Positions 10,153-64,000 of a DNA stretch of 64,000 nt are shown here, one piece after another. This DNA is from Kiloniella litopenaei (GTDB lineage: Bacteria; Pseudomonadota; Alphaproteobacteria; Kiloniellales; Kiloniellaceae), in contig NZ_LANI01000005.1 in assembly GCF_000982415.1 (NCBI RefSeq), positions 1-64,000 on the forward strand, read 5' to 3'. Within the stretch, counting starts at the first letter, position 1. Each line of letters begins with the position of its first letter. The notes under the pieces are model-generated. The model searched no databases. It worked only from the letters and a program-made list of their open reading frames with translations, and was not told the origin of the DNA. The position numbers and the translations under genes were made by a program.

Positions 10153-10242
10153 CGACCCTATCATACAGCATTGTTTTTTTATGGCGAGAGGTAGAGTTCT
10201 TTGGCGCAGAAGAAACATTCTGATACAGCGAAAGCCTGTAGC

Positions 10243-44024: not shown

Positions 44025-44818
44025 TCTTTTCTTTTTACAAAAGGCCTGAGGAATAGCTGTGGGAGGGATTTATCCGTCGCTCCCTCTACCCCTATTTTCA
44101 TATTTAATGTTCTTCGCGCAAGGCTTTTAGAACTGAAAACTCTATCCCAGAAGCTGAAAACTGAACCGTAATTACTATCTGTATCGCTCCGAAGTGCATG
44201 ATGATGAACCCAATGGATGGATGGTGTTACAATGACCATGGACAAGGCTTTTTCCAATCTCTGGTCCAATCGTAGATTTGAATGGTGGAAAATCGTTCCG
44301 ACCAATAATATCGTTTCAAAAATTATGACGGATACCAATGGGATATCAAAAAGAACAATAACGAGAACTCTCATAATTGCGGATAATATAACCTCCCCAA
44401 AATGAAAGCGAAGAGCCGAAGTTGTATCTAAGTTCATGTCCAGGTGATGTATTTCATGAAACCGCCAGAGAAACGGGATTTCATGATTGAGCCGATGCCA
44501 CCAATAGATAAAGCAATCTAACAAAATCACATCCAGAATAATACCAATACCACCTGATAAAACAGCTGGACGCCAGCCAACAAGATGTGTGGTGGCCCAA
44601 ATAGTCAGGGGAATAACCACAAGCGGTGACAAAAGCAAATTACAGAACCAGAGGCATATATTCCGCCAAACCCTGACAGGGAAATATTTTTCAACTCCTT
44701 CGCTGTTTTTTGTCAAAGCAGAAGCAGGAAAAGTTCGCTCCAAGACAAAAAGCAATAAGAGCCAAACAAAAACGATCAATCCTTTATAGGTCAAAAGCAC
44801 TTCTACAAAATTTTCCAT
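44021..44818 (-). CDS. Fatty acid hydroxylase / sterol desaturase superfamily membrane protein
   Basis: The 265-residue integral membrane di-iron protein carries the full set of histidine boxes of this superfamily: HRLNH (H108-H112), HEIHH (H121-H125), FHHSN (H178-H179) and HWVHHH (H202-H206), within four membrane segments. Members hydroxylate or desaturate lipids, carotenoids or sterols using oxygen; the substrate here is unknown, though membrane lipids are likely in a bacterium of this type. It is convergent with lolA (4-bp overlap) and divergent from the amidotransferase-like gene. Confidence 0.92.
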   Translation of the reverse strand: MENFVEVLLTYKGLIVFVWLLLLFVLERTFPASALTKNSEGVEKYFPVRVWRNICLWFCNLLLSPLVVIPLTIWATTHLVGWRPAVLSGGIGIILDVILLDCFIYWWHRLNHEIPFLWRFHEIHHLDMNLDTTSALRFHFGEVILSAIMRVLVIVLFDIPLVSVIIFETILLVGTIFHHSNLRLDQRLEKALSMVIVTPSIHWVHHHALRSDTDSNYGSVFSFWDRVFSSKSLARRTLNMKIGVEGATDKSLPQLFLRPFVKRKD

Positions 44819-47112: not shown

Positions 47113-47188
47113 TGTCTCAGAGGTTTATTTAAATCTGCAGATACACGGAACGTCCCACAGAAACGTCCGCTGAGACAATGTAAACCTC
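47113..47188. other. Interleaved inverted repeats between xthA and the CNB gene
   Basis: TGTCTCAG (47113-47120) pairs with CTGAGACA (47170-47177), and GAGGTTTA (47120-47127) pairs with TAAACCTC (47181-47188). The order a, b, a', b' gives either alternative or pseudoknot-like folding. A 10-bp palindrome ATCTGCAGAT (47133-47142) lies inside. It probably belongs to the transcript ends of the two convergent genes. Confidence 0.4.
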
Positions 47189-47651
47189 AACTTGTCTTTT
47201 CAGCCAGCGCGTTCCGGGCTTCGGTCAATTGACTCGTAGTATGGTCGATGCGGTGCGCAAGAACCCGCATAACCTCGACCCCCATTTCAGGAAAGTCCAT
47301 CACCATATTAAAAAAGAGTTCTTTGGTAATCTTGAGAGTTACCAGCTCTGACTTGGCTTTAATAGTTGCTGTTCTTGGTACATCACAGAGGATAGCAATT
47401 TCACCGACAAAATCATTTTTCCCAAAGGTCGCAACGACAAGAGGTCCATCGTCAGTATCAACAATAACATCGGCCTCTCCTTCGATAAAAATATAGGCCG
47501 CATCTCCGGCATCTCCCTGATGAAAAAGCTCCTTTCCTTCCTTGAAAGTAAGTCTTTCACTCGCAAAAGCCATAAGTTTTAACCGAGAAGGATCAATGTT
47601 TGCGAAAAGTGGTATGTTTTTTAACGCTTCAACTTCTTGTTCAATCGACAT
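47187..47651 (-). CDS. Cyclic nucleotide-binding domain protein, stand-alone
   Basis: The 154 residues form a single CRP-type cyclic-nucleotide-binding beta-roll without a DNA-binding domain: LFHQGDAGDAAYIFIEGEAD and the phosphate-binding cassette FVGEIAILCDVPRTATI, with the key Glu84 and Arg93 kept, so real cAMP or cGMP binding is plausible. It lies 67 bp downstream of the large ABC protein on the same strand, and I believe some relatives of that protein carry such a domain fused at the C-terminus, so this is likely its regulatory subunit (inference). A nucleotide cyclase gene lies 15 kb away at 62439-63767. Confidence 0.92.
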   Translation of the reverse strand: MSIEQEVEALKNIPLFANIDPSRLKLMAFASERLTFKEGKELFHQGDAGDAAYIFIEGEADVIVDTDDGPLVVATFGKNDFVGEIAILCDVPRTATIKAKSELVTLKITKELFFNMVMDFPEMGVEVMRVLAHRIDHTTSQLTEARNALAEKTS

Positions 47652-47718
47652 CTACTTATTTTTCCAGCTACTCTGTTTCTCTTTGGCTTCGTTTCACGAT
47701 GGCTATTTCTTGATTTTT

Positions 47719-50436
47719 CTATTCATCATCAATAAGACTTTTTAAAACTTTTCCATCTTTGTTCAGCTCTTCAAAACGGCCGCTTTCAACAACTTTTCCA
47801 TTTTGCATTACAATGACATATTCGAAATGCTGCGACAAACTGGCTCTTTGCAATGTCCAACAAACACCTCGATTTTCCTGCGCTTCCATAATAGACGGAA
47901 CCAGCCTGTTTTGACTCTGTGAATCCATAACCGCTGCTGCTTCATTCAGGATCAATAAATCAGGTCGTTTGATCAGCGATCGCGCCAATGCCAGCTTTTG
48001 TCGCTGAACGCTGCTTAGACGGTTACCTGCAATACCAACATTAAATTCCAGGCCAACTTCAATAACTTCTGACCTTAGCCCCAAATCATCCAAAAGCTCT
48101 GTCATGACGCGCCCTATTGTTGCGCCAGCTTCCGCACGACCATAGGCCAAACGACCAAACAATATATTATCCTGAATACTAGCTGCTGAGTTATAATTGT
48201 CCGGATCATAAAACTCGACTGCGTCCGGGTCACGGCTTTCCAGTTTCTCTGCAAAAATCTTACGGGCCCTTAAGATTTTTGCCTCGACATCTTTGGTTAC
48301 AAGCCCAAGACGATGACGGGCCTCGACATAATCAAAAGGCAAATACATCAAAGCTTCCCGATCAGAATCAGATATATCGGCAAAGCTGCTTTTATCAGCT
48401 CTTTTCACTATTTTATCGAACTCGGGCAAATCATCTGCAGATATAAAACTAAACTGCTCAAAGAACTGATGAGACGGTGGCAATCCCATAAAAAGTTCAA
48501 CCATCGTACGGGCAATGGACAAACCCATATTATAAATACTGTCCCGCAGGTCTGCTTCTTCAACTGCCTCGCGCAAAACCGGCATCGCCAAAAGGTTATT
48601 TCCCGCATACTGCTTTTTACGGGGTGTTCCAAATAAAAGGTTTTCGCGCAAAGTCGCGTTATTATTGTATTTCTCGGGATCAAAAGCGATTACAAGATCT
48701 TCATCGCCTGTGGATTTAAGGTGCTCCTTTAACGCTATCCTTGCCCCAAGGATGCTTTCAGCAATGTCTGGTCGATTTTCACTATCAACGATGCCACTTA
48801 GTCCGAATAAATAAACATCTTCTTCAAAATCAACGGCACGCAATACCTCTGTAACCCGAGGCACCAATTCCGCCGGATCATTAATCCCCGCAGAAACAAA
48901 GTCGACCCATTCACCATCAGGGTTGAGCGCAATGTTTCCAGTCCGCAGGGCTTCTTGCTTTTCGCGTTGATATTCAGCCTCGGAATGAGAAAGCAGGGAT
49001 GAATCTTTGATCATCCAGTTCCGTAACCCATAAAAAAGGTTGTCCATAACCGACAAGGGAAATAGATAAGCCTCAGAACTAACATAGGAAATTCGACGTC
49101 CGGTTATGGCAGAAGGCAATTGAGCCATTGATTTGCCCCCTATCTTCATCGACCCCGAAGACGATTTAACCAAATTGGCAAGAAGCAACCCCAGATATTC
49201 CTTTCCACTGCTGGCGTTGCCAACAACGGCAATTTTCTTATCAACACCAACACTGAAAGTGATACCGTCTAGAAGTTTGTTCTCATTTTCATCAACCAGA
49301 CAAAGGTTGCTTGCAACAATATCCCCTTCCAGTGGCGGGCTATGCTTTTCTTCAAGTCGTTGCATTTCTGCATCGATCATACCATTTGGCTGGAACTGTT
49401 CAGCAACCTGCTCGTACTTGATTTGAACATCATTTCGTTGCTGATCCCAGTTAATGAGATCTTTGATCGGCGGGGGTAAATCCTTATAAGCTGCAAGAAC
49501 CGCCACAAGGGTACCGATTTCAAACTGTCCGGTTATTACCAAATATCCACCGCCAAGATAAAAGATAAAAGGTGTTATTTGCGCCAACAAGTTGTTCAGA
49601 AACTTAACAAAAAACTTTCTCTGATAAATTTCATATCGAATTTTGAAAATCTTGCCCAGCCGGCTTGATATCTCGGCACGCTCATAGTTGCTGGTATCAT
49701 GGGCCTGAATTTCAACGGCACCTTCGACCAATTCACTAACGCGACCAGCCAACGCCCGTGCTGTCATCTGCCGTTGGCGACCAAGGTCGAGAATACGTCG
49801 CCGCAGTTTGGGAATCAAAAAAGCCTGCACCAATACGATGCTCATGGCCACAATGCCCAACCACACGTTCTGGACCATAATAAAAATCAAGGCCGTTAAG
49901 GCTTGGCCGCCTAAAAAGACGGGGGTAACAATGGCATCACCGATAAAGCCGCCCAAAGGTTCGACTTCATCCTTAAGCATTGTTGCAATCTCTGCCTGCT
50001 TGACCCGTCGGCTGTGCATAACTGGAAACCGGAGAATACGATCAGTCAATTCAAACCGTAGCCTGCGGAGCATTCGCTCCCCTAGCTGACCTTTTAACGT
50101 ATTGATTACAAACTTGAATAGACCGTTGACAAGTACCAACCCCAAAAAGGAAAAACACAATGCAAACAGTAAAGAGATTTGTGTTAAATCAAACCCCTCA
50201 AACAACACCACCGGCTGACCAAAGATTGCTTCCCCAAAGGGAAGGTCAAACCGCATGAAAGACAAAGTTGAATTAATGTCAGAAAAATTTTGAGAGTCGA
50301 CAGCCCGGTTTATTATGCTTTTTGGTAAATCCAATGACAGAAAGTAAAAAGGCATTGAAGCAAGTACCAGGAACAAAATTTTAATCTGGTCTGCTTTACT
50401 GTGCTTCCAAATATACTTAAAAAGTCGTTGCTCCAT
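47719..50436 (-). CDS. ABC exporter-like protein with degenerate, expanded nucleotide-binding domain
   Basis: Residues 1-340 are a type I exporter membrane domain with about six helices. The nucleotide-binding domain (about 370-905) is about 290 residues too long. Every catalytic motif is altered: Walker A GNASSGKE (406-413, Glu for Ser/Thr), no Q-loop Gln (YVSSEAYLF), signature LSSVQ (807-811), Walker B LLILNEA with Asn831 for Asp, and Gln863 where the H-loop His belongs. The segment after the Q-loop is reiterated: VMDNLFYG (463-470), ATLRENLLFG (594-603) and ASIQDNILFG (752-761), the last two each at the end of a repeat of about 62 residues (542-603, 698-761). It is probably not an ordinary ATPase. 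Divergent from the glycosyltransferase cluster. Confidence 0.9.
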   Translation of the reverse strand: MEQRLFKYIWKHSKADQIKILFLVLASMPFYFLSLDLPKSIINRAVDSQNFSDINSTLSFMRFDLPFGEAIFGQPVVLFEGFDLTQISLLFALCFSFLGLVLVNGLFKFVINTLKGQLGERMLRRLRFELTDRILRFPVMHSRRVKQAEIATMLKDEVEPLGGFIGDAIVTPVFLGGQALTALIFIMVQNVWLGIVAMSIVLVQAFLIPKLRRRILDLGRQRQMTARALAGRVSELVEGAVEIQAHDTSNYERAEISSRLGKIFKIRYEIYQRKFFVKFLNNLLAQITPFIFYLGGGYLVITGQFEIGTLVAVLAAYKDLPPPIKDLINWDQQRNDVQIKYEQVAEQFQPNGMIDAEMQRLEEKHSPPLEGDIVASNLCLVDENENKLLDGITFSVGVDKKIAVVGNASSGKEYLGLLLANLVKSSSGSMKIGGKSMAQLPSAITGRRISYVSSEAYLFPLSVMDNLFYGLRNWMIKDSSLLSHSEAEYQREKQEALRTGNIALNPDGEWVDFVSAGINDPAELVPRVTEVLRAVDFEEDVYLFGLSGIVDSENRPDIAESILGARIALKEHLKSTGDEDLVIAFDPEKYNNNATLRENLLFGTPRKKQYAGNNLLAMPVLREAVEEADLRDSIYNMGLSIARTMVELFMGLPPSHQFFEQFSFISADDLPEFDKIVKRADKSSFADISDSDREALMYLPFDYVEARHRLGLVTKDVEAKILRARKIFAEKLESRDPDAVEFYDPDNYNSAASIQDNILFGRLAYGRAEAGATIGRVMTELLDDLGLRSEVIEVGLEFNVGIAGNRLSSVQRQKLALARSLIKRPDLLILNEAAAVMDSQSQNRLVPSIMEAQENRGVCWTLQRASLSQHFEYVIVMQNGKVVESGRFEELNKDGKVLKSLIDDE

Positions 50437-50798
50437 AGTGCCCCTAATCCCCCGCAGCCGTCCTTTAAAAGTTTAATTGCAGCCATTACATCTGTATTTC
50501 AAGTGGTTACAGGATAAAATAAGATTTTTTCCGGTAAACCGTCCACAAATTTTAATGTGCGACAACGATTAGCCTATCCGAAGTCACAACAGAGGTAAAC
50601 TCGAAGAGCATAAACTGATTGTTATCCAACGTGTCTCTCCTAATTAATAACTCTACAGTATTATAAAGAACGCAGTGCACCGGGGATGTGATTATGTCAT
50701 GCCAAATAGAAAATTTTTTTAGAACATATAGTTACACATAATCCATGCGATATTTATCACAAAAAAACTGGTAAAATACTCTTTGGCTATATTCTTTC
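50437..50798. other. Divergent promoter region of the ABC and glycosyltransferase genes
   Basis: The 362-bp gap is AT-rich and must hold promoters in both directions. Only short dyads are seen (CGGTAAACCG near 50536). I found no open frame, RNA gene or clear operator. Confidence 0.4.
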
Positions 50799-52109
50799 TT
50801 GGGTCTTGGGAATGAATTATGGCATAGTCCCGACATTATTGAGGGGAGCAAAACCATTACAAAAGACAGTAGACACATTGTTGACGATCAAAAAAGTACC
50901 CGTGTTCTGATTTACAGTCACGATAGCTTTGGTCTGGGGCATTTGCGACGCTGTCGGGAAATTGCCCATACACTGGTGGAAGAACATAAAAACCTATCAG
51001 TTTTAATTCTGTCTGGGTCACCAATCATTGGATCTTTCGGATTTAAGGCACGGGTGGATTTTGTCCGTATCCCTGGCGTAATCAAACTGAGAAATGGCGA
51101 TTACACCTCTCTCAATCTGCATATTGATATTGAACAAACTCTGAGCATCAGATCTTCTATTATCAAACACACAGCAGAGTTTTATGACCCCGACCTTTTC
51201 ATTGTGGATAAGGAGCCTTTGGGCCTAAGAGGTGAAGTGGAAGACACACTTCGCTTGCTGAAAAGTAGAGGCACCCCCTGTGTGCTCGGCCTCAGAGACG
51301 TCATGGATGATCCGGATCTGCTGTCAAATGAATGGGAACGTAAGAATACAGCCCCCGCTTTATCTGAATATTATGACGACATATGGGTCTATGGCCTTCC
51401 TCAAATATGTGATCCGTTGGATGGCATTGACCTGCCCCCGTCAGTCCAAAGAAAGATGACCTATACCGGATATCTGCGGCGAACCGGGGGCAACGATGTT
51501 CCCATGCCTGTTCTGGAAAAAATCGATGAAGAAACGCCCTATTTGCTTGTGACTGTCGGTGGGGGCGGTGATGGTGAAGAAATAATCGATTGGGTTCTCT
51601 CTGCCTATGAAAGTGACCCGGACCTGCCATATCCTGCGCTGATTGCTCTTGGTCCCTTTATGAACAGCGACCTTCAACACGATTTTCAAGTTCGCGCCAG
51701 CAAACTGCCAAATGTTGAAGCCATCACCTTTAATGCACAATTCGAGAGTCTGGTCGATAGAGCCATCGGTATTGTTGGTATGGGCGGATACAATACTTTC
51801 TGTGAAATTCTTTCCTACGATAAACGCGCTCTCATCGTACCTAGAACTGTTCCCAGAATGGAGCAATACATAAGGGCCAGTCGTGCACAGGAACTAGGCT
51901 TGGTGTGTATGCTCGAAAATGATGGCAAGCGCGACCCGCAAAAAATGGCAACTGCCTTGAGGAACTTACCTCAACAACATCTGCCATCCGATGTGGTTGT
52001 CCCCGGTTTGCTTGATGGTCAGAAAAATGTGATCAAACTTGCTGATAACTGCTTCAAGGCAAAGCTTTCAAAGCTCGGATTAATTGATAAGTTATCAAAT
52101 ACAAACTAA
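50799..52109 (+). CDS. MurG-like (GT-B) glycosyltransferase, COG4671 type
   Basis: The 436 residues form a GT-B fold. The N-terminal domain starts after about 30 residues with VLIYSHDSFGLGHLRRCREI, the glycine loop used for lipid or acceptor binding in MurG-like enzymes; the C-terminal domain has PYLLVTVGGGGDGEEI and the donor-site segment GIVGMGGYNTFCEILSYDKR. Donor and acceptor are unknown. No ATG is available; a TTG at 50799 is used as the only start after an in-frame stop, so the N-terminus is uncertain. It is the first of five glycosyltransferase genes and a distant paralogue of those at 54630 and 56502. Confidence 0.88.
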   Translation: MGLGNELWHSPDIIEGSKTITKDSRHIVDDQKSTRVLIYSHDSFGLGHLRRCREIAHTLVEEHKNLSVLILSGSPIIGSFGFKARVDFVRIPGVIKLRNGDYTSLNLHIDIEQTLSIRSSIIKHTAEFYDPDLFIVDKEPLGLRGEVEDTLRLLKSRGTPCVLGLRDVMDDPDLLSNEWERKNTAPALSEYYDDIWVYGLPQICDPLDGIDLPPSVQRKMTYTGYLRRTGGNDVPMPVLEKIDEETPYLLVTVGGGGDGEEIIDWVLSAYESDPDLPYPALIALGPFMNSDLQHDFQVRASKLPNVEAITFNAQFESLVDRAIGIVGMGGYNTFCEILSYDKRALIVPRTVPRMEQYIRASRAQELGLVCMLENDGKRDPQKMATALRNLPQQHLPSDVVVPGLLDGQKNVIKLADNCFKAKLSKLGLIDKLSNTN

Positions 52110-52190
52110 CAACATCTGCTTAATCGCGCTCCACACCCAAAAGACGTCTCCCCAAAGCAGACAACAGAAAAAGAGATATAATCCGGCGGT

Positions 52191-53414
52191 ATGAAAAAAA
52201 TAACCGTAATTCTTAAGGGGTATCCACGCCTTTCCGAAACTTTTATCGCACAGGAACTTCTTGCGCTGGAACAACGCGGCCTAGACCTTTCACTGGTCTC
52301 ACTGCGCCATCCAACGGATACATCCACACATCCCATTCATCAGGAAATCAAGGCGCCCGTCAGTTACCTGCCCGAGTATATCTATCAAGAACCTTTACGG
52401 GTTTTGAAAAGCTGGTGGAAAGCCCGGAAGATGGCAGGATATAAAAAGGCATTTTCTCTTTTCATCAAAGACCTGAAACGTGACCGAACGCCAAATAGAA
52501 TAAGGCGTTTTGCCCAAGCCTGTGTTCTCGCAGCTGAATTGCCAGAGGATGTTGATTGGCTCTACGCGCACTTTTTACACACTCCCTCTTCTGTCACACG
52601 CTATGCATCCTTTATGCGTGGAATTCCCTGGTGCGGATCGGCCCATGCCAAGGATATATGGACATCGCCAGAGTGGGAATTGAGAGAAAAGCTGGCCGAC
52701 ATTAAGTGGTTGGCAACCTGCACAAAATTTAACGTGGACTATTTAAGGGGCTTAACCCAAGACAAAGGCCGTGTAGACCTTGTCTACCACGGTCTTGATT
52801 TTGACCGTTTCGATAAAGCAGCGAACAGCCATTCACTGAATGACGGTAGTTCAGAAGATAAAAAAGTTACCCTGATTTCCGTAGGGCGGGCAGTTGCCAA
52901 AAAAGGCTATGACGATCTTTTGAAAGCCCTTTCCCATCTACCCCCAACTTTACATTGGCAATTTATTCATATCGGAGGGGGAACATTAAGCAAGAGCCTG
53001 AAAGATCAGGCTGAATCACTCGGCATTAGCCATAAAATCTTCTGGATGGGCGCTCAACCGCAAGAGGTCGTTCTGAAGCAATACCGAAAAGCAGATCTTT
53101 TTGTATTAGCGTCCAGAATCACCGAAGACGGGGATCGCGACGGCATGCCAAATGTGCTTATGGAAGCACAAAGTCAGGCTCTGGCCTGCCTTTCAACCGA
53201 TATATCTGCTATACCTGAGCTTATTGTTAACAATGAAACGGGTATATTGGTTTCACCAGAAAACCCGGATGCTTTAAGTGATGCCCTTAATAAGCTTATC
53301 AAGGATCCTGCGCTCAGGAAAAGGTTAGGGGAAGCTGGGGCAAAGCGTGTGAGAGGTGAATTTTCTATGAAACAAGGCATAGACCAGCTTTTTAATCGGT
53401 TCACAGCAACATAG
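52191..53414 (+). CDS. Glycosyltransferase family 4 (GT-B)
   Basis: A 407-residue cytoplasmic transferase: ITVILKGYPRLSETFIAQEL is typical of GT4 enzymes of exopolysaccharide and colanic-acid type (WcaL-like), AHFLHTPSSVTRYASFMRGI and SAHAKDIW form the acceptor domain, and the C-terminal nucleotide-sugar domain has LISVGRAVAKKGYDDLLKAL and the EX7E-type region RITEDGDRDGMPNVLMEAQS. It would transfer a sugar from a nucleotide donor to a growing glycan. It begins 81 bp after the first glycosyltransferase gene and ends 13 bp before the next. Confidence 0.93.
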   Translation: MKKITVILKGYPRLSETFIAQELLALEQRGLDLSLVSLRHPTDTSTHPIHQEIKAPVSYLPEYIYQEPLRVLKSWWKARKMAGYKKAFSLFIKDLKRDRTPNRIRRFAQACVLAAELPEDVDWLYAHFLHTPSSVTRYASFMRGIPWCGSAHAKDIWTSPEWELREKLADIKWLATCTKFNVDYLRGLTQDKGRVDLVYHGLDFDRFDKAANSHSLNDGSSEDKKVTLISVGRAVAKKGYDDLLKALSHLPPTLHWQFIHIGGGTLSKSLKDQAESLGISHKIFWMGAQPQEVVLKQYRKADLFVLASRITEDGDRDGMPNVLMEAQSQALACLSTDISAIPELIVNNETGILVSPENPDALSDALNKLIKDPALRKRLGEAGAKRVRGEFSMKQGIDQLFNRFTAT

Positions 53415-53427
53415 TCGGGCGATAGAA

Positions 53428-54633
53428 ATGCGGATTGCTTTTTACGCCCCCCTAAAATCCCCACATCACCCAACACCATCGGGCGATCGCCACGTTGCCA
53501 GATTAATTATTCAAGCTTTGGAAACACAGGGTCATGAGGTTGAGATCGCGTCTCATCTTCGAAGCAGGGATGCAAAAGGCGATAAAGAGCGCCAGATCAG
53601 AATGAAGAAGATTGGGGAAAAACTGGCCGCAAGATATATCAAGAAAATTCAAAACAAACCAGAGGACCAACGCCCAGATATCTGGATTACCTATCACCTC
53701 TATTACAAAGCACCCGACTGGATTGGCCCTCTTGTTTGTGAGGCCCTTAATATCCCCTATATTCCCATCGAAGCATCGATCGCCAACAAACGTGCAAATG
53801 GCCCTTGGGATCTAAGCCATCAAGCTGTCGTTGCCGCGGTTCATCAAGCCGATTGTATCATTAGCCTCAACCCCCATGACTCAAACTGTTTACCTAAAAG
53901 TATCAGAAACTGGACTTTGCCACCCTTTATTATCCCAGACCCCATTATAGAAAACCGGGAAAACTGGTCGCAGTGTCGTAAAATCATTGCAGAAAAATAC
54001 GGGCTGGACCCCCATAAGCAATGGTTGCTGGCAATTGCCATGATGCGCCCCGGGGACAAGCTGGAATCATACAAAGTGCTATCAAAAGCCTTGCGCGGCC
54101 TTCCAGACTTGTCCTGGCAGTTAATCATCGTTGGTGATGGACAGGCCAGACCCGATGTTGAAACGGCATTTGTCTGGGTACCTAATACAAAGATCACCTA
54201 TACGGGTCAGCTCGATTCAGACGAGCTGGCGACACTTATTCCGGCGTGTGATATCTATACCTGGCCCGCAGTTAATGAAGCCTATGGCCTCGCTTTTTTA
54301 GAAGCCCAAGCAGGGGGGCTACCAGTCATCGCAGGAAACACCGGGGGGGTTCCGGCTGTGGTTGCAGATGGTGAAACCGGCCTGTTAACAACACCCGGAG
54401 ATCCCGTGGCCTTTGCAGCAGCGCTGAGAAGTTTACTCACCGCGCCTGTTCGTCGCCGAGATATGGGAAAAGCCGCAGCAGAAAAAGTAGAAGCAATGCA
54501 TAGTCTGGTGACAGCTGGAAAGCGTTTGGATGCAATCCTTGCAACATCCAGAAAAAACTTTATTGAACCCGGCTTACCCCTGTTCGATTATGTCCAAAAA
54601 AATACCAATAAAAACAATACTTTATTATCATGA
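53428..54633 (+). CDS. Glycosyltransferase family 4 (GT-B)
   Basis: The product (401 residues) begins MRIAFYAPLKSPHHPTPSGD, has an acceptor domain with Arg/Lys-rich helices, and a donor domain with LLAIAMMRPGDKLESYKVLS and the EX7E motif region PAVNEAYGLAFLEAQAGGLP followed by NTGGVPAVVADGETGLL. That is a standard GT4 enzyme, with a preference for retaining chemistry known for the family; sugar and acceptor are unknown. Its stop overlaps the next start as ATGA, so translation is coupled within the cluster. Confidence 0.93.
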   Translation: MRIAFYAPLKSPHHPTPSGDRHVARLIIQALETQGHEVEIASHLRSRDAKGDKERQIRMKKIGEKLAARYIKKIQNKPEDQRPDIWITYHLYYKAPDWIGPLVCEALNIPYIPIEASIANKRANGPWDLSHQAVVAAVHQADCIISLNPHDSNCLPKSIRNWTLPPFIIPDPIIENRENWSQCRKIIAEKYGLDPHKQWLLAIAMMRPGDKLESYKVLSKALRGLPDLSWQLIIVGDGQARPDVETAFVWVPNTKITYTGQLDSDELATLIPACDIYTWPAVNEAYGLAFLEAQAGGLPVIAGNTGGVPAVVADGETGLLTTPGDPVAFAAALRSLLTAPVRRRDMGKAAAEKVEAMHSLVTAGKRLDAILATSRKNFIEPGLPLFDYVQKNTNKNNTLLS

Positions 54634-55850
54634 CATCTGACACTCAAAACCCAGAAATCAAGAGATCAGAAGAACGCATTGATGTTCTTTTTTATGTTCA
54701 ACATCTTCTCGGTATCGGGCATCAAAAACGAGCAGCGACTCTCACCCGAGCTATGAATAAAGCCGGTCTTTCAGTTGCTTTTGTTTCCGGTGGGATGAAC
54801 GTTCCCGGACTCGATACCGGTAGTGCAGAATTTTATCAACTCGATCCCGTTCGTGCTGATGGTATCCTGTTTACAGAATTACTGGATAAAAACGATCAGC
54901 CCATTGATAAAACCTTCAAGGCCAAACGCGCACAAGATCTTGTCGATATCTATCACGCAACAAAACCACGGCTTGTACTGTTGGAAATGTTTCCCTTTGG
55001 CCGTCGGCAAATGCGCTTTGAACTAATTCCCTTGCTTGAGGCCGCGAAAGCATCAGAATTTTCCAGTAAAATCGTCTCATCCGTTCGGGATATCTTGGTC
55101 AAGGCCCCCAAACCGGAACGCCTTACCGAAATGCTTGCCTGGGTAGATACTCATTTCGATCATGTCCTTATCCACGGTGATCAAAACCTGATTCCCTTTG
55201 ATAAAACCTTTCATCCTGCCCGGGATATCGCTGATAAAATTCTCTATAGCGGCTACGTCATTGATGAAAAGGTTGATGCGACACCTCACCCGACAGATGG
55301 TATTGACGAAGTCCTTGTTTCAACCGGCGGCGGTGCTGTCAGCGAACGTCTGATCGACGCAGCCTTGAGCGCGAGAAAACAAAGTATTTTGAAAGAAAAA
55401 CTTTGGCGCATACTTATTGGCCATAGCCTACCGGAAAAATTATTTGAAAAGTACAAAGCACAGTCAGATGATAACTTGATTGTTGAGCGTTCAAGACCGG
55501 ATTTCACATCTCTTTTGGCTAACTGCGCCCTATCCATAAGTCAGGGCGGCTACAACACGGTTATGGAGGTTCTACGCGCCGGATGTCCTCGTGTCATCGT
55601 CCCCTATTCCGGTGGCCTGGAAACAGAACAAACCCTCAGGGCCAAGCTGTTATCTGAACAAAACGCCCTTACCTGTGTAGATGAAGAAACACTGACAGGT
55701 GAGAAGCTTGCTACAGCCATGGAGAAAACATTACAAAAGAAACAAAAGCCGCCATCCAGCCTTAATACAAATGGCGCTGAAAACACAGCGACAATCCTCG
55801 CAAACATTCTGAATGATAACCCCCTGCAACAGTTTTTGAAAAATGGCTGA
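54630..55850 (+). CDS. MurG-like (GT-B) glycosyltransferase
   Basis: The 406 residues read DVLFYVQHLLGIGHQKRAAT at the N-terminal glycine loop, LEMFPFGRRQMRFELIPLLE in the middle, and VLVSTGGGAVSERLIDAALS and LSISQGGYNTVMEVLRAGCP for the donor site. It is closely similar along its whole length to the gene at 56502 (same VQHLLGIGH, FPFGRRQMRFEL and GYNTVME blocks), so the two arose by duplication with the histidine phosphatase between them. The acceptor may be a lipid-linked saccharide by analogy with MurG. Overlaps its neighbours by 4 and 8 bases. Confidence 0.9.
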   Translation: MTSDTQNPEIKRSEERIDVLFYVQHLLGIGHQKRAATLTRAMNKAGLSVAFVSGGMNVPGLDTGSAEFYQLDPVRADGILFTELLDKNDQPIDKTFKAKRAQDLVDIYHATKPRLVLLEMFPFGRRQMRFELIPLLEAAKASEFSSKIVSSVRDILVKAPKPERLTEMLAWVDTHFDHVLIHGDQNLIPFDKTFHPARDIADKILYSGYVIDEKVDATPHPTDGIDEVLVSTGGGAVSERLIDAALSARKQSILKEKLWRILIGHSLPEKLFEKYKAQSDDNLIVERSRPDFTSLLANCALSISQGGYNTVMEVLRAGCPRVIVPYSGGLETEQTLRAKLLSEQNALTCVDEETLTGEKLATAMEKTLQKKQKPPSSLNTNGAENTATILANILNDNPLQQFLKNG

Positions 55851-56505
55851 ACTCTTGATCTTCAGGCATGGGCCAACCATTTGGAATGCTGAAAAAAGAA
55901 TACAGGGAAGGTCTGATATTTCCCTTTCTGAACAAGGCATCGAAACAGTTCAAAAATGGCAGCTTCCAGACGAATGGATGGCTGTACCCTGGTATGTCAG
56001 CCCTCTGCAACGTGCTCAGGAAACAGCCAAACTTCTGGGCCAAGAAAAGCTCGAAACCGATCCCTTGCTGATTGAAATGTCCTGGGGAAAGTGGGAAGGA
56101 CAAAGGTTACCTGAATTAAGGAAAAAATTGGGACCAGAAATGGAAAAGATGGAGGCCCTTGGACTTGATCTTTGCCCCCCTGGTGGCGAAAGTCCGAGAG
56201 ATGTCCAAAACCGCCTGAAACCATTTTTATACAAGGTCGCCGGATCGAACCAGTCAGCGGTCGCCGTGGCACACAAAGGTGTTCTAAGAGCCCTTTATGC
56301 CGAGGCAACAAACTGGGATATGCTCGGCAAACCAAAAGAAAAAATCAGAGATAACTGCGCCCACCTTTTTCAGATTTCCTCAACGGGTATAATCAGTGTA
56401 AAAGCAATGAATATCAGTTTATTGTCATCCATTGATTTTTTTCCAAGACCAATAAAACAATCAGAGCATCCCCCATCAGACTTCCCCAAAGAAAATCGCT
56501 CATGA
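55843..56505 (+). CDS. Histidine phosphatase family protein
   Basis: A 220-residue phosphoglycerate-mutase-like phosphatase with catalytic residues in place: LIFRHGPTIWN (Arg8, phospho-acceptor His9), SPLQRAQETA (Arg57), EMSWGKWEG (proton donor Glu78) and AVAHKGVLRA (His144). Relatives dephosphorylate sugar phosphates, cobalamin precursors (CobC) or nucleotides. Lying between two duplicated glycosyltransferase genes with 8-bp and 4-bp overlaps, it most likely removes a phosphate from a sugar or lipid intermediate of the same pathway (inference). Confidence 0.92.
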   Translation: MAELLIFRHGPTIWNAEKRIQGRSDISLSEQGIETVQKWQLPDEWMAVPWYVSPLQRAQETAKLLGQEKLETDPLLIEMSWGKWEGQRLPELRKKLGPEMEKMEALGLDLCPPGGESPRDVQNRLKPFLYKVAGSNQSAVAVAHKGVLRALYAEATNWDMLGKPKEKIRDNCAHLFQISSTGIISVKAMNISLLSSIDFFPRPIKQSEHPPSDFPKENRS

Positions 56506-57707
56506 GTATCCACAAAAATACGGGTAATGTTTTTATCTATGTGCAGCACCTTCTGGGGATTGGACACCTGAGACGTGCTTCTTTACTTGCCAAAGCCATG
56601 GACAACGCAGGAATGTCTGTTGTCTTTGCCTCTGGGGGGCGCCCCGTGTCCTATCTTGATATCGGAAATGCGCAACTTTTCCAGCTCCCTGCCCTGCATG
56701 CTGCCGATAACAGCTTCAAAGTTCTAAAGGATATTGAAGGATCAATCGTCAATGATGAGTGGAAAAAACAGCGAAAAGAGCTGCTTTTATCAGCTTTTCG
56801 CGAGGCCCGGCCAGATGTCCTCCTGATTGAGATGTTTCCCTTTGGCAGGCGCCAGATGCGTTTCGAACTGGACCCCTTAATTACTTTGGCCAAATCGATG
56901 AATATTCCCGTCGTCAGTTCTATCCGGGATATTCTCACAACCCATAAAACCCCGGGCAAAAGTGAATGGATCATTGATCGGGTTCAAAAAGACATTGATC
57001 ATGTTCTAGTTCATGGCGATCCGGATTTTATCCCTCTTGAGGACAGCTTTCCCCTTGCCGAAAAAATAAAAGATAAAATCGTCTATACCGGCTACGTTGT
57101 TGAAAACAATACAGAACATAGAAGCCGGAACTTAGAAAAAAAACGAAGAGGTGTGCTCGTCTCTGCAGGCGGCGGTGCCGTTGCCCTGCCCTTGGCTGAA
57201 GCAGTCATAACAGCCAAAAACCTTTCCTCTTTGAACGATGTACCCTGGCGATTGCTTTTGGGAAACAATCTGCCTGATGAGGAATTTAATAAAGTTCTTA
57301 AAAGTGCGTCCGATGGGTTAATTGTTGAACGAAACCGCCCGGACTTTTGCACGCTTCTGGCCGCAAGCCAGCTTTCGATCAGCCAGGCCGGATACAATAC
57401 CGTTATGGAAACCCTTATGACCGGAACACCCGCGATTGTCGTTCCCTTTTCGGCAGATGGTCAAAGCGAACAAACGGATCGTGCACAAAAACTGGCGCAA
57501 GCAGGCGTGCTATCACTGCTATCAGAAGCAGACCTAACCCCGGAAAATCTGGCAAAGACTATTGACCATGCCGTCGAAAAGGCGTCATTGAAGAACCTGG
57601 AGTCAGAAATAACAGTCGATGTTCACGGCACAGACAAAACAACGTTATTTATCAAAAACCTAATTGAAAAGAGACACAAAAAGAGAGACACACAGTGCCC
57701 CAGATAA
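56502..57707 (+). CDS. MurG-like (GT-B) glycosyltransferase, paralogue
   Basis: The 401-residue enzyme shows FIYVQHLLGIGHLRRASLLA, LIEMFPFGRRQMRFELDPLI, VLVSAGGGAVALPLAEAVIT and LSISQAGYNTVMETLMTGTP, the same order of blocks as the product of 54630-55850. Two related enzymes side by side suggest addition of the same or similar sugars at successive positions. The start overlaps the phosphatase stop (ATGA) and the end overlaps the following membrane-protein gene by 13 bases. Confidence 0.9.
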   Translation: MSIHKNTGNVFIYVQHLLGIGHLRRASLLAKAMDNAGMSVVFASGGRPVSYLDIGNAQLFQLPALHAADNSFKVLKDIEGSIVNDEWKKQRKELLLSAFREARPDVLLIEMFPFGRRQMRFELDPLITLAKSMNIPVVSSIRDILTTHKTPGKSEWIIDRVQKDIDHVLVHGDPDFIPLEDSFPLAEKIKDKIVYTGYVVENNTEHRSRNLEKKRRGVLVSAGGGAVALPLAEAVITAKNLSSLNDVPWRLLLGNNLPDEEFNKVLKSASDGLIVERNRPDFCTLLAASQLSISQAGYNTVMETLMTGTPAIVVPFSADGQSEQTDRAQKLAQAGVLSLLSEADLTPENLAKTIDHAVEKASLKNLESEITVDVHGTDKTTLFIKNLIEKRHKKRDTQCPR

Positions 57708-58246
57708 CCCCCCAAAGTTTCAAGTATCCTCTTTTTGATATTTATCTCGATTATCTGAAAACCGCCTTCGGTTTATCCATTGGCCTCGGCGGGCTGATTT
57801 ATGGCCTGAACAACACTTTTTCCCAAATCTGTTTTAGCATTATCCTCGTTATCTTTATCGTCTTTGGATTTCATTCTCTACGGCGCCATAAAACATGCGT
57901 AAAGCTGGATGGTCAGCAGGTTGAAATTACAGATTTCAAACAACGGAAAATTCTATTCAAAGACTTGGAAAACATAGAGTTGCGCTATTACGGACGTCCC
58001 GTCAAAGACAAAGATCGTGATCAAAAACCCAAAGGCGTTCTTCACCTGACGTTAAAGAGCAAAGAGCAAAAACTCACTTTTGATTCCAACTTGTATGGGT
58101 TCAGATATCTGGTCTGGTCAGCCATACTATTTGCGAAAGAGTGTAACCTGCCGCTTGACCCAAGCACCATTGGCAATATGCTAGATATCGGACTTGATCC
58201 AGAAGGCAGCAGTGAAATGCCGGATCCAAAAATGTCGGGAATTTAA
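57695..58246 (+). CDS. Small membrane protein of the glycosyltransferase cluster
   Basis: The 183 residues start at GTG. Two hydrophobic helices (FGLSIGLGGLIYGLNNTF and ICFSIILVIFIVFGFHSL) precede a soluble beta-rich domain (TCVKLDGQQVEITDFKQRKI, LENIELRYYGRPVKDKDRDQ, GVLHLTLKSKEQKLTFDSNL) that recalls bacterial PH-like domains. No named family is recognised. The 13-bp overlap with the preceding glycosyltransferase gene ties it to that cluster; it might anchor the enzymes at the membrane (inference). Confidence 0.75.
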   Translation: MPQITPQSFKYPLFDIYLDYLKTAFGLSIGLGGLIYGLNNTFSQICFSIILVIFIVFGFHSLRRHKTCVKLDGQQVEITDFKQRKILFKDLENIELRYYGRPVKDKDRDQKPKGVLHLTLKSKEQKLTFDSNLYGFRYLVWSAILFAKECNLPLDPSTIGNMLDIGLDPEGSSEMPDPKMSGI

Positions 58247-58301: not shown

Positions 58302-60218
58302 GTGGACGATCTGTTACAGGTCAAAGACCTCCGTGTCGCATTTAAGCTTCCAGAAGGCACTTTGAACGCCGTCAAAGGCGTATCCTTTCGTATTCCAAGG
58401 GGAAAAACAGTTTCTCTGGTCGGTGAATCAGGATCGGGTAAATCCGTTGTCAGTCAGGCAATCATGGGAATCTTACCCAAAGTAGCTGAAATTGCAGGCG
58501 GAGAGATTCTCTTTTCCGACCCGGAAAAACAGGGTGAAATCCTGAATCTGGCAAGGATCAAACCTGATAGTAAACAAATGAGACAAATCCGCGGTGGTCG
58601 CATCTCTATGGTTTTTCAGGAGCCCATGACCTCGCTTTCGCCAGTACACACCGTTGGTAACCAGATCTGCGAAGCTTTGGAACTACATCGGGATATTACC
58701 TCGGCTCAAGCACTGGAACTTGCAACCGACATGTTACGTATGGTCGGGTTCCCCGACCCAGCCCGCGCAATGCGTACCTATCCCTTTGAACTTTCAGGTG
58801 GTTTGCGTCAGCGCGCCGTCATTGCCATGGCACTGGTATGCCACCCCGTCCTACTGATTGCCGACGAACCCACCACAGCGTTGGACGTCACCATTCAGGC
58901 ACAAATTCTGAAGCTTATCAAAGATTTGCAGAGCGAGCTGGATATGTCCGTTCTGATGATCACCCACGACCTTGGCGTTGTTGCCAATATGGCCGATGAA
59001 GTCGTGGTCATGTACCACGGCGAGGTAATGGAAAGCGGTACGCTGGAGGATATTTTCAGAAAAGCCGAACACCCCTACCTCAAGGCCTTGCTTCACGCGG
59101 TTCCTCGTTTTGATATGAAGCCGGATGAACGGCTCAAGCCAATTCGTGAAATTGAACACCACCCTGATAATCCTATTCTCAAGGCAAAGAGACAAAGACG
59201 AAAAATCTGCAAAGATGATCCCCCTTTGCTTGAGGTAAATAACATCTCAAAAGCCTTTTCTATCAGAAAAGGAGGGTTTTTCTCTCAAAAATCAGAAGAG
59301 AAAGTACTCGCCGTCGACGATATCAGCTTTTTTGTCAATCGTGGGGAATGCCTCGGTTTGGTCGGGGAAAGTGGGTGCGGGAAAACCACCCTGTCAAAGA
59401 TCATTATGCGTGCTCTAAAGCCCGATCAGGGGTCAATTATTTTCCGCGATCAGGATAATAATCCGACAGATGTTTTAGCCCTGGAGAAAAAAGAGCTCTT
59501 TAAGTTTCGTGAACGTGTTCAGTTCATGTTCCAGGATCCTTATAGTTCGCTCAACCCCCGCATGACTGTGCAGGAACTAATTGGAGAACCCCTGCTCATC
59601 CATGGCATGAAAAATCCTAAAGAGCGACGAAAGTACGTTGAAAGCCTAATGGACGTGGTTGGATTGGCACCAATGCATATAAATCGCTATCCACATTCAT
59701 TTTCAGGGGGGCAGCGTCAACGGATCGGGATTGCCAGGGCACTGGCCCTACAACCCGACCTTTTGATCTGTGACGAGCCTGTTTCAGCCTTGGATGTCTC
59801 TATTCAGGCACAGGTTCTTAACCTGTTGAAAGATTTAAAAGCAGCTTTGGGTCTGACCTATATTTTCATCAGTCACAATCTGGCAGTTATCGATTACATT
59901 GCTGATCGGATTATCGTCATGTGCAGGGGACGATTGGTTGAAACTGCCCCCAAGGAATTACTCTTTAAAAATCCTGTTCATCCCTATACCCGGGCATTGG
60001 TATCTGCAGTACCTGATCCCGATCTCGACCATCCACTCGATTTAAAGGATTTATTGGAGGGCAAAGCTTCTGTGCCCGAAAACTGGCCAGCGCCTTTTAC
60101 TGTAAATGAGCAACACGAGATGGCCATGGTTGATTTGGGTGGTGGACATTATGTACGCGTCCATAAAGGCACTGAGAGTGATGCCATCCCTCAAGCAGAT
60201 ATGAGGGAGAACGCGTAA
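58302..60218 (+). CDS. Peptide-type ABC transporter ATP-binding protein with two NBDs (YejF-like)
   Basis: The 638 residues hold two complete nucleotide-binding domains of the oligopeptide/nickel class. Domain 1: GESGSGKS, LSGGLRQRAVIAMAL, LLIADEPTTALD. Domain 2 (from about residue 305): GESGCGKT, FSGGQRQRIGIARAL, LLICDEPVSALD. All catalytic residues are normal, in contrast to the ABC protein at 47719. It should energise the two permeases that follow, with which it overlaps by one base. The start is GTG. No substrate-binding protein gene is in the operon. Confidence 0.95.
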   Translation: MDDLLQVKDLRVAFKLPEGTLNAVKGVSFRIPRGKTVSLVGESGSGKSVVSQAIMGILPKVAEIAGGEILFSDPEKQGEILNLARIKPDSKQMRQIRGGRISMVFQEPMTSLSPVHTVGNQICEALELHRDITSAQALELATDMLRMVGFPDPARAMRTYPFELSGGLRQRAVIAMALVCHPVLLIADEPTTALDVTIQAQILKLIKDLQSELDMSVLMITHDLGVVANMADEVVVMYHGEVMESGTLEDIFRKAEHPYLKALLHAVPRFDMKPDERLKPIREIEHHPDNPILKAKRQRRKICKDDPPLLEVNNISKAFSIRKGGFFSQKSEEKVLAVDDISFFVNRGECLGLVGESGCGKTTLSKIIMRALKPDQGSIIFRDQDNNPTDVLALEKKELFKFRERVQFMFQDPYSSLNPRMTVQELIGEPLLIHGMKNPKERRKYVESLMDVVGLAPMHINRYPHSFSGGQRQRIGIARALALQPDLLICDEPVSALDVSIQAQVLNLLKDLKAALGLTYIFISHNLAVIDYIADRIIVMCRGRLVETAPKELLFKNPVHPYTRALVSAVPDPDLDHPLDLKDLLEGKASVPENWPAPFTVNEQHEMAMVDLGGGHYVRVHKGTESDAIPQADMRENA

Positions 60219-61216
60219 TGTTGACCTATATCGTGAATCGTATTTTGGCCATGGTGCCAACACTACTTATCATTTCAGCAGTTATCTTCACATTGATTCA
60301 GTTGCCGCCCGGCGACTATCTGGAAACACAGATTGCCGAAATGCAGGCACAGGGTGAAAACGTCGATCAGGAAAAAATCGATTATCTCCGCACCGAATAC
60401 GGTTTGGACAAACCCATGTACGAACAATATTTCGATTGGGTTTTTGGGCTTTTACAAGGTGATCTTGGCTATTCATTCGAACATGAATTACCTGTAACCG
60501 AAGTTATTGGTGATCGGATCACCTTAACCATTGTGCTCGCCCTTGCTGCAACGCTCTTTACCTACGTTCTTTCCTTCCCCATAGGTATCTATACCGCTGT
60601 AAAGCAATACTCTGTCGGTGATTATGTTTTCAGCTTTGTCGGGTTTATCGGCCTTGCAACACCTAACTTTTTGCTGGCTTTGGTTTTGTTATATTTTGCC
60701 AATGTCTGGTTCGGTACATCTATTGGCGGCCTGATGGATGATCAATTTATCGGCAAGCCCTGGAGTGTAGATAAAGCGCTGTCCGTCTTGGAACATCTAT
60801 GGGTTCCCGTTGTCGTAATTGGAACTTCCGGTACCGCAGGTATGATCAGACGGCTACGCGCGAATATGCTGGATGAACTATCCAAACAGTACGTCATTAC
60901 TGCCAAAGCCAAGGGCCAAACGCCCCTCAAAATCCTTTTGAAATATCCACTTCGTTTGGCAATAAACCCTTTTATAGCAGATATTGGATCTATTCTGCCT
61001 GACTTACTTTCCGGGTCTGTCTTGGTCGCGGTGGTCATGGGATTGGAAACAACCGGCCCAATGCTGGTCGATTCACTCTTGAGCCAGGATATGTATCTCG
61101 CGGGGTCATTTCTTATCATCGAAGCATCGCTTGTTGTTATCGGGGTTTTCCTTTCAGATCTTATTCTTGCCGCAATTGACCCCAGAATTCGTCTGGGCGG
61201 GGGAGCTGAAAAATGA
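60218..61216 (+). CDS. Peptide-type ABC transporter permease (DppB/YejB family)
   Basis: A 332-residue inner-membrane permease: the N-terminal VNRILAMVPTLLIISAVIFT signature, VDQEKIDYLRTEYGLDKPMY, six membrane segments, and the EAA loop GTAGMIRRLRANMLDELSKQ, YVITAKAKGQTPLKILLKYP that docks on the ATPase. This is the B-type partner of a heterodimeric oligopeptide importer. It starts on the last base of the ATPase gene and ends overlapping the second permease by 4 bases. Confidence 0.95.
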   Translation: MLTYIVNRILAMVPTLLIISAVIFTLIQLPPGDYLETQIAEMQAQGENVDQEKIDYLRTEYGLDKPMYEQYFDWVFGLLQGDLGYSFEHELPVTEVIGDRITLTIVLALAATLFTYVLSFPIGIYTAVKQYSVGDYVFSFVGFIGLATPNFLLALVLLYFANVWFGTSIGGLMDDQFIGKPWSVDKALSVLEHLWVPVVVIGTSGTAGMIRRLRANMLDELSKQYVITAKAKGQTPLKILLKYPLRLAINPFIADIGSILPDLLSGSVLVAVVMGLETTGPMLVDSLLSQDMYLAGSFLIIEASLVVIGVFLSDLILAAIDPRIRLGGGAEK

Positions 61217-62400
61217 GCAAAAACACAACAGATCATCAGCCCCAAAATCGGCCAATGGAACACTACGTCAATCCAGCCCCTTTTGATCCCCAATCGGTCA
61301 CAAAACTGACGCCACAGCAAGAACGCTATTTCACGGCATCGCAATGGCAGATCATGTGGTGGAAGTTCAAAAAACACAAATTGGCGGTTTATTCCGGGGT
61401 TATACTGCTTTGTATGTATGTGGTTGCCATTCTAGCAGAGCTGGTCGCCCCCTATAATTTACATAACAGGGAAACAAAATTTATCTATGCCCCGCCGCAG
61501 GCCATTCACTTTTTCCATGAAGGCGAGTTTATAGGGCCCTTTGTCTATGGCTTTGACTACAACCTCAATATGGAAAACCTGAAACGTGAATATACCCCGA
61601 ATACATCTGATATTCAGAAGTTAAACTTCTTTTGCCGAAGTGATCAGGAGTATGAGTATCTTGGTCTAATCAGCGGAGATTTTCATTTCGTCTGTCCGGC
61701 AGAGAATGGAACGCTTTTCATCTGGGGAACTGATCGTTTAGGACGAGATGTTTTTAGTCGGATTATCTATGGGTCAAGAATTTCTCTAACCATTGGGCTG
61801 ATCGGTGTTGCCATCAGCTTTGTGCTTGGCACCTTCTTTGGTGGTTTGGCCGGATATTTTGGTGGTCTGGTCGATAATTTTGTGCTGCGAGCCATTGAAA
61901 TACTCAAATCCTTCCCGAGCCTGCCATTATTCATGACTCTTTCCGCTCTTTTACCTGTCACTTGGAGTCCTTTGGGCGTTTTCTTTGGCATATCTATCAT
62001 TCAGGGTTTTCTGGATTGGCCGGGTCTAGCCCGCGCGGTCAGGTCAAAATTGTTGAGCCTACGCGAAGAGGATTTCACCACAGCAGCGCAGTTGATGGGC
62101 GCTTCACATGCAAGAATTATTGGCAAACACCTTTTACCATCTTTCAGCAGCCATCTTATTGCCTCTGCAACCCTGGCCATTCCCATGATGATACTGGGTG
62201 AAACCAGCTTGTCTTTCCTTGGTCTTGGTCTAAGAGCACCCATCACATCTTGGGGCGTATTGCTAAACGAAGCGCAAAATATTAGTGCTGTTGTTCTATA
62301 TCCATGGCTGCTGTTACCCGTACAGCCTGTGGTATTGGTCGTACTCTGTTATAATTTCTTGGGTGACGGACTGCGTGATGCAGCAGATCCCTATAAGTAA
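61213..62400 (+). CDS. Peptide-type ABC transporter permease (OppC/YejE family)
   Basis: The 395-residue C-type permease has an OppC_N helix (KHKLAVYSGVILLCMYVVAI), a large periplasmic insert (about 85-165) as in YejE, then the transport domain with GTDRLGRDVFSRIIYGSRIS and the EAA loop LREEDFTTAAQLMGASHARI, IGKHLLPSF. Together with the preceding permease and ATPase it forms a complete membrane complex for peptides or similar compounds. The large N-terminal insert is the reason to compare it with YejE, whose system takes up peptides and microcin C in E. coli. A terminator follows directly. Confidence 0.94.
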   Translation: MSKNTTDHQPQNRPMEHYVNPAPFDPQSVTKLTPQQERYFTASQWQIMWWKFKKHKLAVYSGVILLCMYVVAILAELVAPYNLHNRETKFIYAPPQAIHFFHEGEFIGPFVYGFDYNLNMENLKREYTPNTSDIQKLNFFCRSDQEYEYLGLISGDFHFVCPAENGTLFIWGTDRLGRDVFSRIIYGSRISLTIGLIGVAISFVLGTFFGGLAGYFGGLVDNFVLRAIEILKSFPSLPLFMTLSALLPVTWSPLGVFFGISIIQGFLDWPGLARAVRSKLLSLREEDFTTAAQLMGASHARIIGKHLLPSFSSHLIASATLAIPMMILGETSLSFLGLGLRAPITSWGVLLNEAQNISAVVLYPWLLLPVQPVVLVVLCYNFLGDGLRDAADPYK

Positions 62401-62405: not shown

Positions 62406-62439
62406 AGTGTGGTGAGAAATGATTATTGCTCACCACACT
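62406..62439. terminator. Bidirectional terminator between the ABC operon and the cyclase gene
   Basis: AGTGTGGTGAG and CTCACCACACT pair perfectly (11 bp) around a 12-base loop. CTTTT on one side and the cyclase stop codon on the other show it serves both converging genes. Confidence 0.75.
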
Positions 62440-63892: not shown

Positions 63893-64000
63893 TTATAGAC
63901 TAAGAACCAGGCCTTCTTTGGCAAACAAAGTGCCCGACCGTAATTTTTCTGCTTTCTCAGCTTCAATATCCAGAAAATCATCATTATGACAGGGGTCATG
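63893..64000 (-). CDS. C-terminal end of a gene cut by the window edge
   Basis: The last 35 codons of a minus-strand gene are visible, starting HDPCHNDDFLDIEAEKAEKL and ending LFAKEGLVLSL before TAA at 63893. The sequence has normal coding composition, but the part seen is too short to name a family. It is upstream of, and in line with, the cyclase gene (126-bp gap). Confidence 0.6.
   Translation of the reverse strand, partial: HDPCHNDDFLDIEAEKAEKLRSGTLFAKEGLVLSL

Follow-up and report, generated by a model that had tools for sequence, protein, structure and literature searches.

What does a run of glycosyltransferase genes do beside a degenerate ATP-binding cassette (ABC) protein that has a cyclic-nucleotide-binding (CNB) protein for a neighbor? 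This question is raised by the Kiloniella litopenaei window analyzed here, the whole stretch formed by the first 64,000 nt of contig NZ_LANI01000005.1. The first-pass annotation of its letters proposed a dedicated pathway in which a lipid or small carrier would receive sugars, be dephosphorylated by a phosphatase and be flipped by the ABC protein under cyclic-nucleotide input. The genes prove to be part of a conserved module, in which the ABC protein, here called ABCx, is coupled to the CNB protein, has lost its ATPase motifs and carries one segment in triplicate. The module comprises glycosyltransferases and a histidine phosphatase, joined in most relatives by a polysaccharide-deacetylase-like protein, together with an Opp-type importer and its solute-binding protein (SBP), the ABCx-CNB pair or fusion and, in several lineages, a cyclase and a metallo-β-lactamase (MBL)-fold hydrolase. 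We favor, tentatively, a reading in which a small glycan is made, released under cyclic-nucleotide gating and taken up again.

ABCx and its cyclic-nucleotide-binding partner

ABCx (47,719–50,436, minus strand) is a 905-aa half transporter resembling type IV exporters, which matches ABC_membrane (PF00664) and, over its first 80 positions, ABC_tran (PF00005). Its best NCBIfam match is MsbA (TIGR02203), with 163.8 bits against a cut-off of 602. The Walker A sequence, GNASSGKE (residues 406–413; 49,198–49,221, minus strand), is degenerate, and E, N, and Q occupy the positions of the Walker A Ser/Thr, the Walker B Asp, and the H-loop His, respectively. Among 59 ABCx homologues, the last Walker A position is D/E in 45 and S/T in only three, while the Walker B Asp is kept in seven, the Glu that follows it in 31, and the H-loop His in 19; the Walker A Lys/Arg (55/59) and, mostly, the signature QRQ are retained. 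In the OppDF importer ATPases encoded at the same loci, the Ser/Thr of Walker A is present in every one of 93 scored cases, and an alignment of 30 ABCx homologues showed strong conservation of the membrane region and of the nucleotide-binding domain (NBD), with many invariant residues in the transmembrane region. Because the motif loss is family-wide, the conservation strong, and the OppDF Walker A intact, the family is, as judged from its sequences, a line of ABC exporters with consistent loss of the ATPase motifs and not a set of decaying genes. The description of the protein as degenerate was therefore right, and extends to the whole family; for the same reason, ATP-driven flipping by ABCx is doubtful, the proposed flipping step being at odds with a family in which both the Ser/Thr of Walker A and the Asp of Walker B have been lost.

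A family-wide insertion of about 270 residues (approximately residues 472–740; 48,217–49,023, minus strand) separates the Q-loop from the signature. It carries extra copies of the Q-loop/helical segment, which occurs three times in tandem (profile-profile E values of 1.3e-15, 3.7e-7, and 1.4e-5), and one Asn, found at the same place in each copy, is invariant in all 59 homologues. In an AlphaFold2 model (pLDDT 82.8, pTM 0.76), the type IV exporter fold is kept: The modeled NBD superimposes on that of ComA over 239 of 239 residues (Z 30.7, rmsd 1.9), and comparison with TmrAB, TM287/288, MsbA, and SUR2 gave Z scores of about 28–30. This shared fold says nothing on function. ABCx has the transmembrane domain and complete NBD of a functional exporter, and lacks both the intact motifs and a score above the MsbA cut-off. 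Split ABC matches elsewhere in the genome, on contig C34, belong to a 997-aa frame that is not matched by ABCx, and were set aside.

The CNB gene (47,187–47,651, minus strand) encodes a stand-alone protein of 154 aa whose sole Pfam match is PF00027 (E=3e-18), the Pfam scan revealing no C-terminal helix-turn-helix. In Sinorhizobium meliloti the gene is annotated as a CRP/FNR transcription factor, a class defined by the C-terminal helix-turn-helix that the window protein lacks. The phosphate-binding cassette of the window protein reads VGEIAILCDVPRTA, with both the Glu and the Arg present; the pattern GEIA..R(T)A is strictly kept in 84 of 101 stand-alone homologues, and the exceptions displayed are near-matches. 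In 97 of 115 complete loci, no more than 1 kb separates CNB from ABCx, and in Azospirillum, Ruegeria, and Sulfitobacter the domain is fused to the ABCx C terminus, for which reason a cyclic-nucleotide input to ABCx, although predicted from sequence, is well supported. Consistent with this input, which the first-pass annotation had anticipated, cyclase genes are found repeatedly within or next to the cluster, at differing places in several lineages. The window holds a class III adenylate/guanylate cyclase gene (62,439–63,767, minus strand, equivalent to L033:4440-5768; PF00211, E=2.5e-8), convergent to the operon, and then the 3' end (63,893–64,000, minus strand) of a gene for an MBL-fold hydrolase (PF12706, E=3e-24), which is cut by the window end and occupies 63,893–64,732 on the contig (L033:5894-6733). 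The nearest solved relatives of this hydrolase are RNase Z-type enzymes; that it might act as a cyclic-nucleotide phosphodiesterase is only a guess. MBL genes adjoin ABCx or CNB in rhizobia and in genomes titled as betaproteobacteria.

A conserved, largely vertically inherited module

The survey of co-conservation that had been suggested with the first-pass annotation was carried out in 190 Alphaproteobacteria genomes, and was strongly positive. ABCx, the first MurG-like glycosyltransferase (GT28a), and the permease OppC are found in 59, 58, and 60 genomes, respectively, a nearly identical distribution, with all three present in 55. ABCx and GT28a occur together in 56 genomes, ABCx alone in three, GT28a alone in two, and neither in 129 (Fisher p 7.5e-42, in a test that ignores phylogeny), so that the proposed dedicated pathway survives as a co-conserved module. 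Four of the odd genomes (G025, G064, G071, and G137) are less than 90% complete, and in each of two families represented by two sampled genomes (f2 and f17) one genome has all three markers and the other none.

ABCx and GT28a are divergent neighbors in 48 of the 54 loci that have both; in about 16 of 56 genomes both are present and unlinked, at least 30 kb apart or on different contigs. In a set of 40 named loci whose flanks were complete, we counted GT4a in 39, OppDF in 38, GT28b/c and GT4b in 37 each, the small membrane protein in 35, the histidine phosphatase in 34, CNB and the deacetylase in 32 each, and ABCx in 30, the distal genes being undercounted with the 10-kb flank used. On the CNB side, the genes xthA, puuD, and lolA flank the locus in many families, and the locus therefore looks old and largely vertical in descent. 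The module is conserved and largely vertically inherited. Close to one in three of the sampled Alphaproteobacteria genomes have it, and it is present in the nitrogen-fixing symbionts S. meliloti, Rhizobium etli, and Mesorhizobium and in Azospirillum.

In a 299-genome sample of the phylum, ABCx was found in Alphaproteobacteria only. Eight genomes with a GT28a cluster are, by their titles, beta- or unclassified proteobacteria, and all eight have ABCx (46–55% identity), mostly in the order OppDF-SBP-OppB-OppC-(MBL)-ABCx-CNB-(cyclase), with the ABCx-CNB pair at the importer end. The seeming absence of ABCx from such clusters was an artefact of the flank cut-off. In three genomes titled Betaproteobacteria, Nitrosomonadales, or Nitrosovibrio, a gene resembling cyclic-nucleotide-gated potassium channels lies just upstream of the glycosyltransferases (L128:7562-8716, L161:4471-5643, and L159:7090-8373); Ion_trans and cNMP_binding were confirmed for the first of these, and the TTVGYGD filter is present in the first two. 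The idea that this channel replaces ABCx in these clusters was rejected, as all eight of the genomes searched have ABCx, in most cases at the opposite end of that cluster.

Several relatives have a fuller gene set. On the R. etli plasmid p42e, the same genes are accompanied by a UDP-sugar dehydrogenase, an adenylate/guanylate cyclase, and a four-gene Opp-type importer, and Phyllobacterium, Mesorhizobium, Shinella, Sinorhizobium, and Sulfitobacter have variants of this layout, some with an added polysaccharide deacetylase, methyltransferase, or MBL-fold hydrolase. The UDP-sugar dehydrogenase is present in the rhizobial and Sulfitobacter clusters, the deacetylase-like gene is found in most relatives and is missing from the Kiloniella cluster, and in rhizobia the module is carried on plasmids. 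In Mesorhizobium and R. etli, a DUF3095 protein is encoded next to this dehydrogenase (L096:20028-21191 and L031:1-20). For S. meliloti, the locus tags SMb21188-21191 (the msbA2 operon) and SMb20805-20815 were guesses that were not confirmed: The cluster lies at 838–846 kb of pSymB, which does not fit the position of msbA2 at 938 kb (PMC3687685), and the msbA2 literature thus concerns another operon.

Some copies of ABCx stand apart from any glycosyltransferase cluster, namely, three copies in one genome (G154; L085, L088, and L089) and an ABCx-CNB fusion on a plasmid of Ruegeria sp. AD91A (L095). Because of this separation, ABCx-CNB may have a second role.

Glycan-building genes, the importer, and its likely ligand

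Divergent from the minus-strand ABCx and CNB genes, as first described, runs a series of plus-strand genes: GT28a (50,799–52,109; PF04101, E=8e-6), the GT4 glycosyltransferases GT4a (52,191–53,414; PF00534, E=2e-36) and GT4b (53,428–54,633; PF00534, E=2e-24), the MurG/UGT-like GT28b (54,630–55,850; PF04101, E=2e-17), a branch 1 histidine phosphatase (55,843–56,505; PF00300, E=1e-38, with the RHG motif read in the translation), GT28c (56,502–57,707), and a small membrane protein (57,695–58,246), which has no Pfam match and, by reading, two transmembrane stretches. From 53,428 on, the genes overlap by 4 bp (54,630–54,633), 8 bp (55,843–55,850), 4 bp (56,502–56,505), and 13 bp (57,695–57,707), exactly as the first-pass annotation had them; every open reading frame was likewise found in its place and order, and Pfam and NCBIfam scans matched the domains it had named. 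It had also noted the lack of Wzx, Wzy, a priming transferase, and a capsule exporter, and none of these (KpsMT type for the exporter) is among the scanned cluster proteins, to which the search was confined, the rest of the genome not having been searched. Its cluster end at 58,246 was premature, since the importer genes follow at 58,302–62,400, and then, on the other strand, the cyclase and the MBL hydrolase. The Opp-type importer with its SBP and the cyclase/MBL pair were overlooked, as were three kinds of gene present in relatives, for a deacetylase, a methyltransferase, and a UDP-sugar dehydrogenase.

The GT28 C-terminal domain PF04101 is thus found in three window proteins and PF00534 in two, making five glycosyltransferases, where most relatives have three or four. 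GT28b and GT28c are paralogues with 42% identity that flank the phosphatase gene, and most relatives carry only one of them. The best Protein Data Bank (PDB) matches of GT28b are UDP-glycosyltransferases such as YjiC, a weak resemblance. Residues 226–364 of GT4b match the glycosyltransferase 3c4q (E=4e-17), and the best NCBIfam model of this protein, which is MshA-like in its C-terminal half, is MshA, far below the cut-off. The nearest named relatives are other Kiloniella loci, with 96–97% identity in GT28a. The start of GT28a is uncertain: The annotated TTG at 50,799 lies in a stretch (50,799–50,900) that differs by one base from other Kiloniella, which makes it doubtful, and homology to relatives starts about 30 codons after it. 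Upstream, a CRP-like site at 50,746–50,761 was rejected, being absent from other Kiloniella and of a kind no commoner in the window than by chance; promoter and terminator scans of the window gave results near shuffle expectation and were not used. A few kilobases upstream of the cluster, outside the conserved module, a fatty-acid-hydroxylase-family gene (44,021–44,818) weakly resembles that for the ornithine-lipid hydroxylase OlsE (E=6e-22, far below the cut-off).

The importer genes, all on the plus strand, encode the fused double ATPase OppDF (58,302–60,218; PF00005 twice and PF08352) and the permeases OppB (60,218–61,216; PF00528 and PF19300) and OppC (61,213–62,400; PF00528 and OppC_N, PF12911). 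With the two PF00528 permeases, the paired ATPase domains with intact Walker A, and a family-5 SBP, the system has the parts of an Opp/Dpp importer. The SBP gene lies between OppDF and OppB in most relatives and is relocated in K. litopenaei (C27:17671-19476), where its product has PF00496 and matches the SBP of the R. etli cluster with E=1.4e-192. Among solved structures, the SBP comes closest to OppA of Thermotoga, to SPH1118, a pectin-binding protein of Sphingomonas, and to a protein that binds alpha-galactosides. SPH1118 recognizes pectin, which it prefers to oligopeptides (PMC9314435), and because of this, together with the UDP-sugar dehydrogenase of several clusters, the sequence evidence leans toward an oligosaccharide ligand, perhaps with a uronic acid, peptides being possible too. 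The relocated gene is directly downstream of a gene that by eye resembles M14-type carboxypeptidases (G000:C27; L188:7278-8474 and 8498-10480), an arrangement that might point to a peptide as the ligand in Kiloniella.

Possible roles of the module and comparison with known systems

In the reading that we favor, the cluster enzymes would build, in the cytoplasm, a small glycan of the soluble or envelope kind. The phosphatase probably strips the phosphate left behind when the acceptor of a GT4 enzyme is a sugar phosphate or cyclitol phosphate, as happens in MshA-type pathways. A cyclic nucleotide made by the cyclase would control ABCx-CNB, which would gate or regulate the passage of the glycan through the inner membrane without a normal cycle of ATP hydrolysis, and the Opp-type importer would retrieve the glycan or its fragments. 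That enzymes for glycan building recur together with an importer suggests that a bacterial glycan or oligosaccharide has been overlooked. A bolder form of this proposal, which we regard as unlikely, holds ABCx to be a new kind of membrane protein, with ATP hydrolysis lost throughout the family, the NBD enlarged by triplication of the Q-loop/helical segment, and CNB in direct control, in which a cyclic nucleotide, in place of ATP turnover, opens or regulates a path for a secreted glycan that the importer then recovers. Several observations weigh against the favored reading: The co-occurrence statistic is inflated by shared ancestry, two genomes (G044 and G169) carry ABCx-CNB without GT28a or OppC, the SBP matches a protein regarded as a peptide binder (Thermotoga OppA) besides the saccharide binders, and ABCx could be ATP-driven with a canonical partner not yet recognized.

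This last point leads to an ATP-driven flippase or exporter of the MsbA/PglK kind, possibly a heterodimer with a canonical half transporter encoded elsewhere, acting on sugars built on a lipid or small carrier. In its favor stand the type IV exporter fold, the MsbA match, and the retention, for the most part, of the Walker A Lys/Arg and the signature, as well as the known heterodimeric exporters with one degenerate site, TmrAB and TM287/288 being among the fold matches. It is nevertheless unlikely: The MsbA score is far below the cut-off, the Walker B Asp has been lost along with the Ser/Thr that binds Mg, and none of the clusters has a recognized canonical exporter partner. Enzymes for a lipid carrier or for priming are absent from the cluster, nothing else there points to the lipid carrier first proposed, and the lipid version would require either an active partner for ABCx or an ATP cycle of an unusual kind. 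The main alternative in mechanism would make ABCx-CNB a SUR-like, membrane-embedded cyclic-nucleotide sensor, regulating the glycosyltransferases or the Opp importer and forming no conduit. An eroded ATPase with a cyclic-nucleotide-binding partner or fusion would suit such a role, as would the genomes that retain ABCx-CNB without glycan genes, and SUR2 is a close fold match, although it shares only the fold, like the other exporters. We consider this unlikely, as the transmembrane region, with its many invariant residues, is better conserved than a tether should need, and no physical partner is known.

The importer could also stand at the beginning of the pathway, taking up exogenous oligosaccharides or peptides to be glycosylated or remodeled, in scavenging, detoxification, or small-molecule biosynthesis, with ABCx-CNB exporting the product. 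Its place in the conserved core, the UGT-like GT28 proteins, and an SBP family with both oligosaccharide and oligopeptide binders would fit, but the several glycosyltransferases and, in some lineages, the UDP-sugar dehydrogenase are more suggestive of de novo synthesis than of changes made to something imported, and no catabolic genes were seen in the Kiloniella cluster, so that we hold it to be quite improbable. Hardly credible is a Pycsar-like anti-phage system of cyclase and CNB effector: The two do co-occur, and a PADLOC scan of CNB gave matches to Pycsar models (E about 1e-14 and weaker), but these matches span only the generic CNB fold, and the fixed chromosomal place by xthA, puuD, and lolA in many families is unlike that of a defence island, as is the tight linkage to glycan genes.

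No characterization of the module or of ABCx was found in the open-access full-text literature, subscription papers being mostly outside this coverage. ABCx offers a testable case of an exporter fold kept over many families without the ATPase motifs and tied to cyclic-nucleotide signaling, and bears on how ABC proteins turn into channels or regulators. With MsbA and other type IV ABC exporters (TIGR02203; also the glucan exporter NdvA/ChvA), its best curated match, it shares fold and domain order; it differs in its low score, its eroded motifs, the NBD insertion of triplicated segments, and the CNB partner or fusion. SUR and CFTR are catalytically degenerate ABC proteins in which the exporter fold has been turned to regulation or gating and the nucleotide sites are impaired. 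ABCx likewise combines an exporter fold with impaired nucleotide sites, but it is a bacterial half transporter in which the motifs of a single chain are eroded, and its additional input is a cyclic-nucleotide-binding domain. Cyclic-nucleotide-gated channels of the MloK1 type, one of whose relatives adjoins the cluster in the three loci mentioned above, also couple such a domain to a membrane protein, although ABCx is not a six-transmembrane channel. The pairing of a GT4 enzyme with an adjoining phosphatase recalls mycothiol-type pathways (MshA), but the GT4b resemblance is a generic one, and five glycosyltransferases are present rather than one. Finally, the Opp/Dpp importers with saccharide-binding proteins, such as SPH1118 (pectin) and AgpA (alpha-galactosides), have the same OppDF-OppB-OppC components and a sequence-related family-5 SBP, whereas the Kiloniella-type importer sits in a glycosyltransferase cluster with ABCx and a cyclase.

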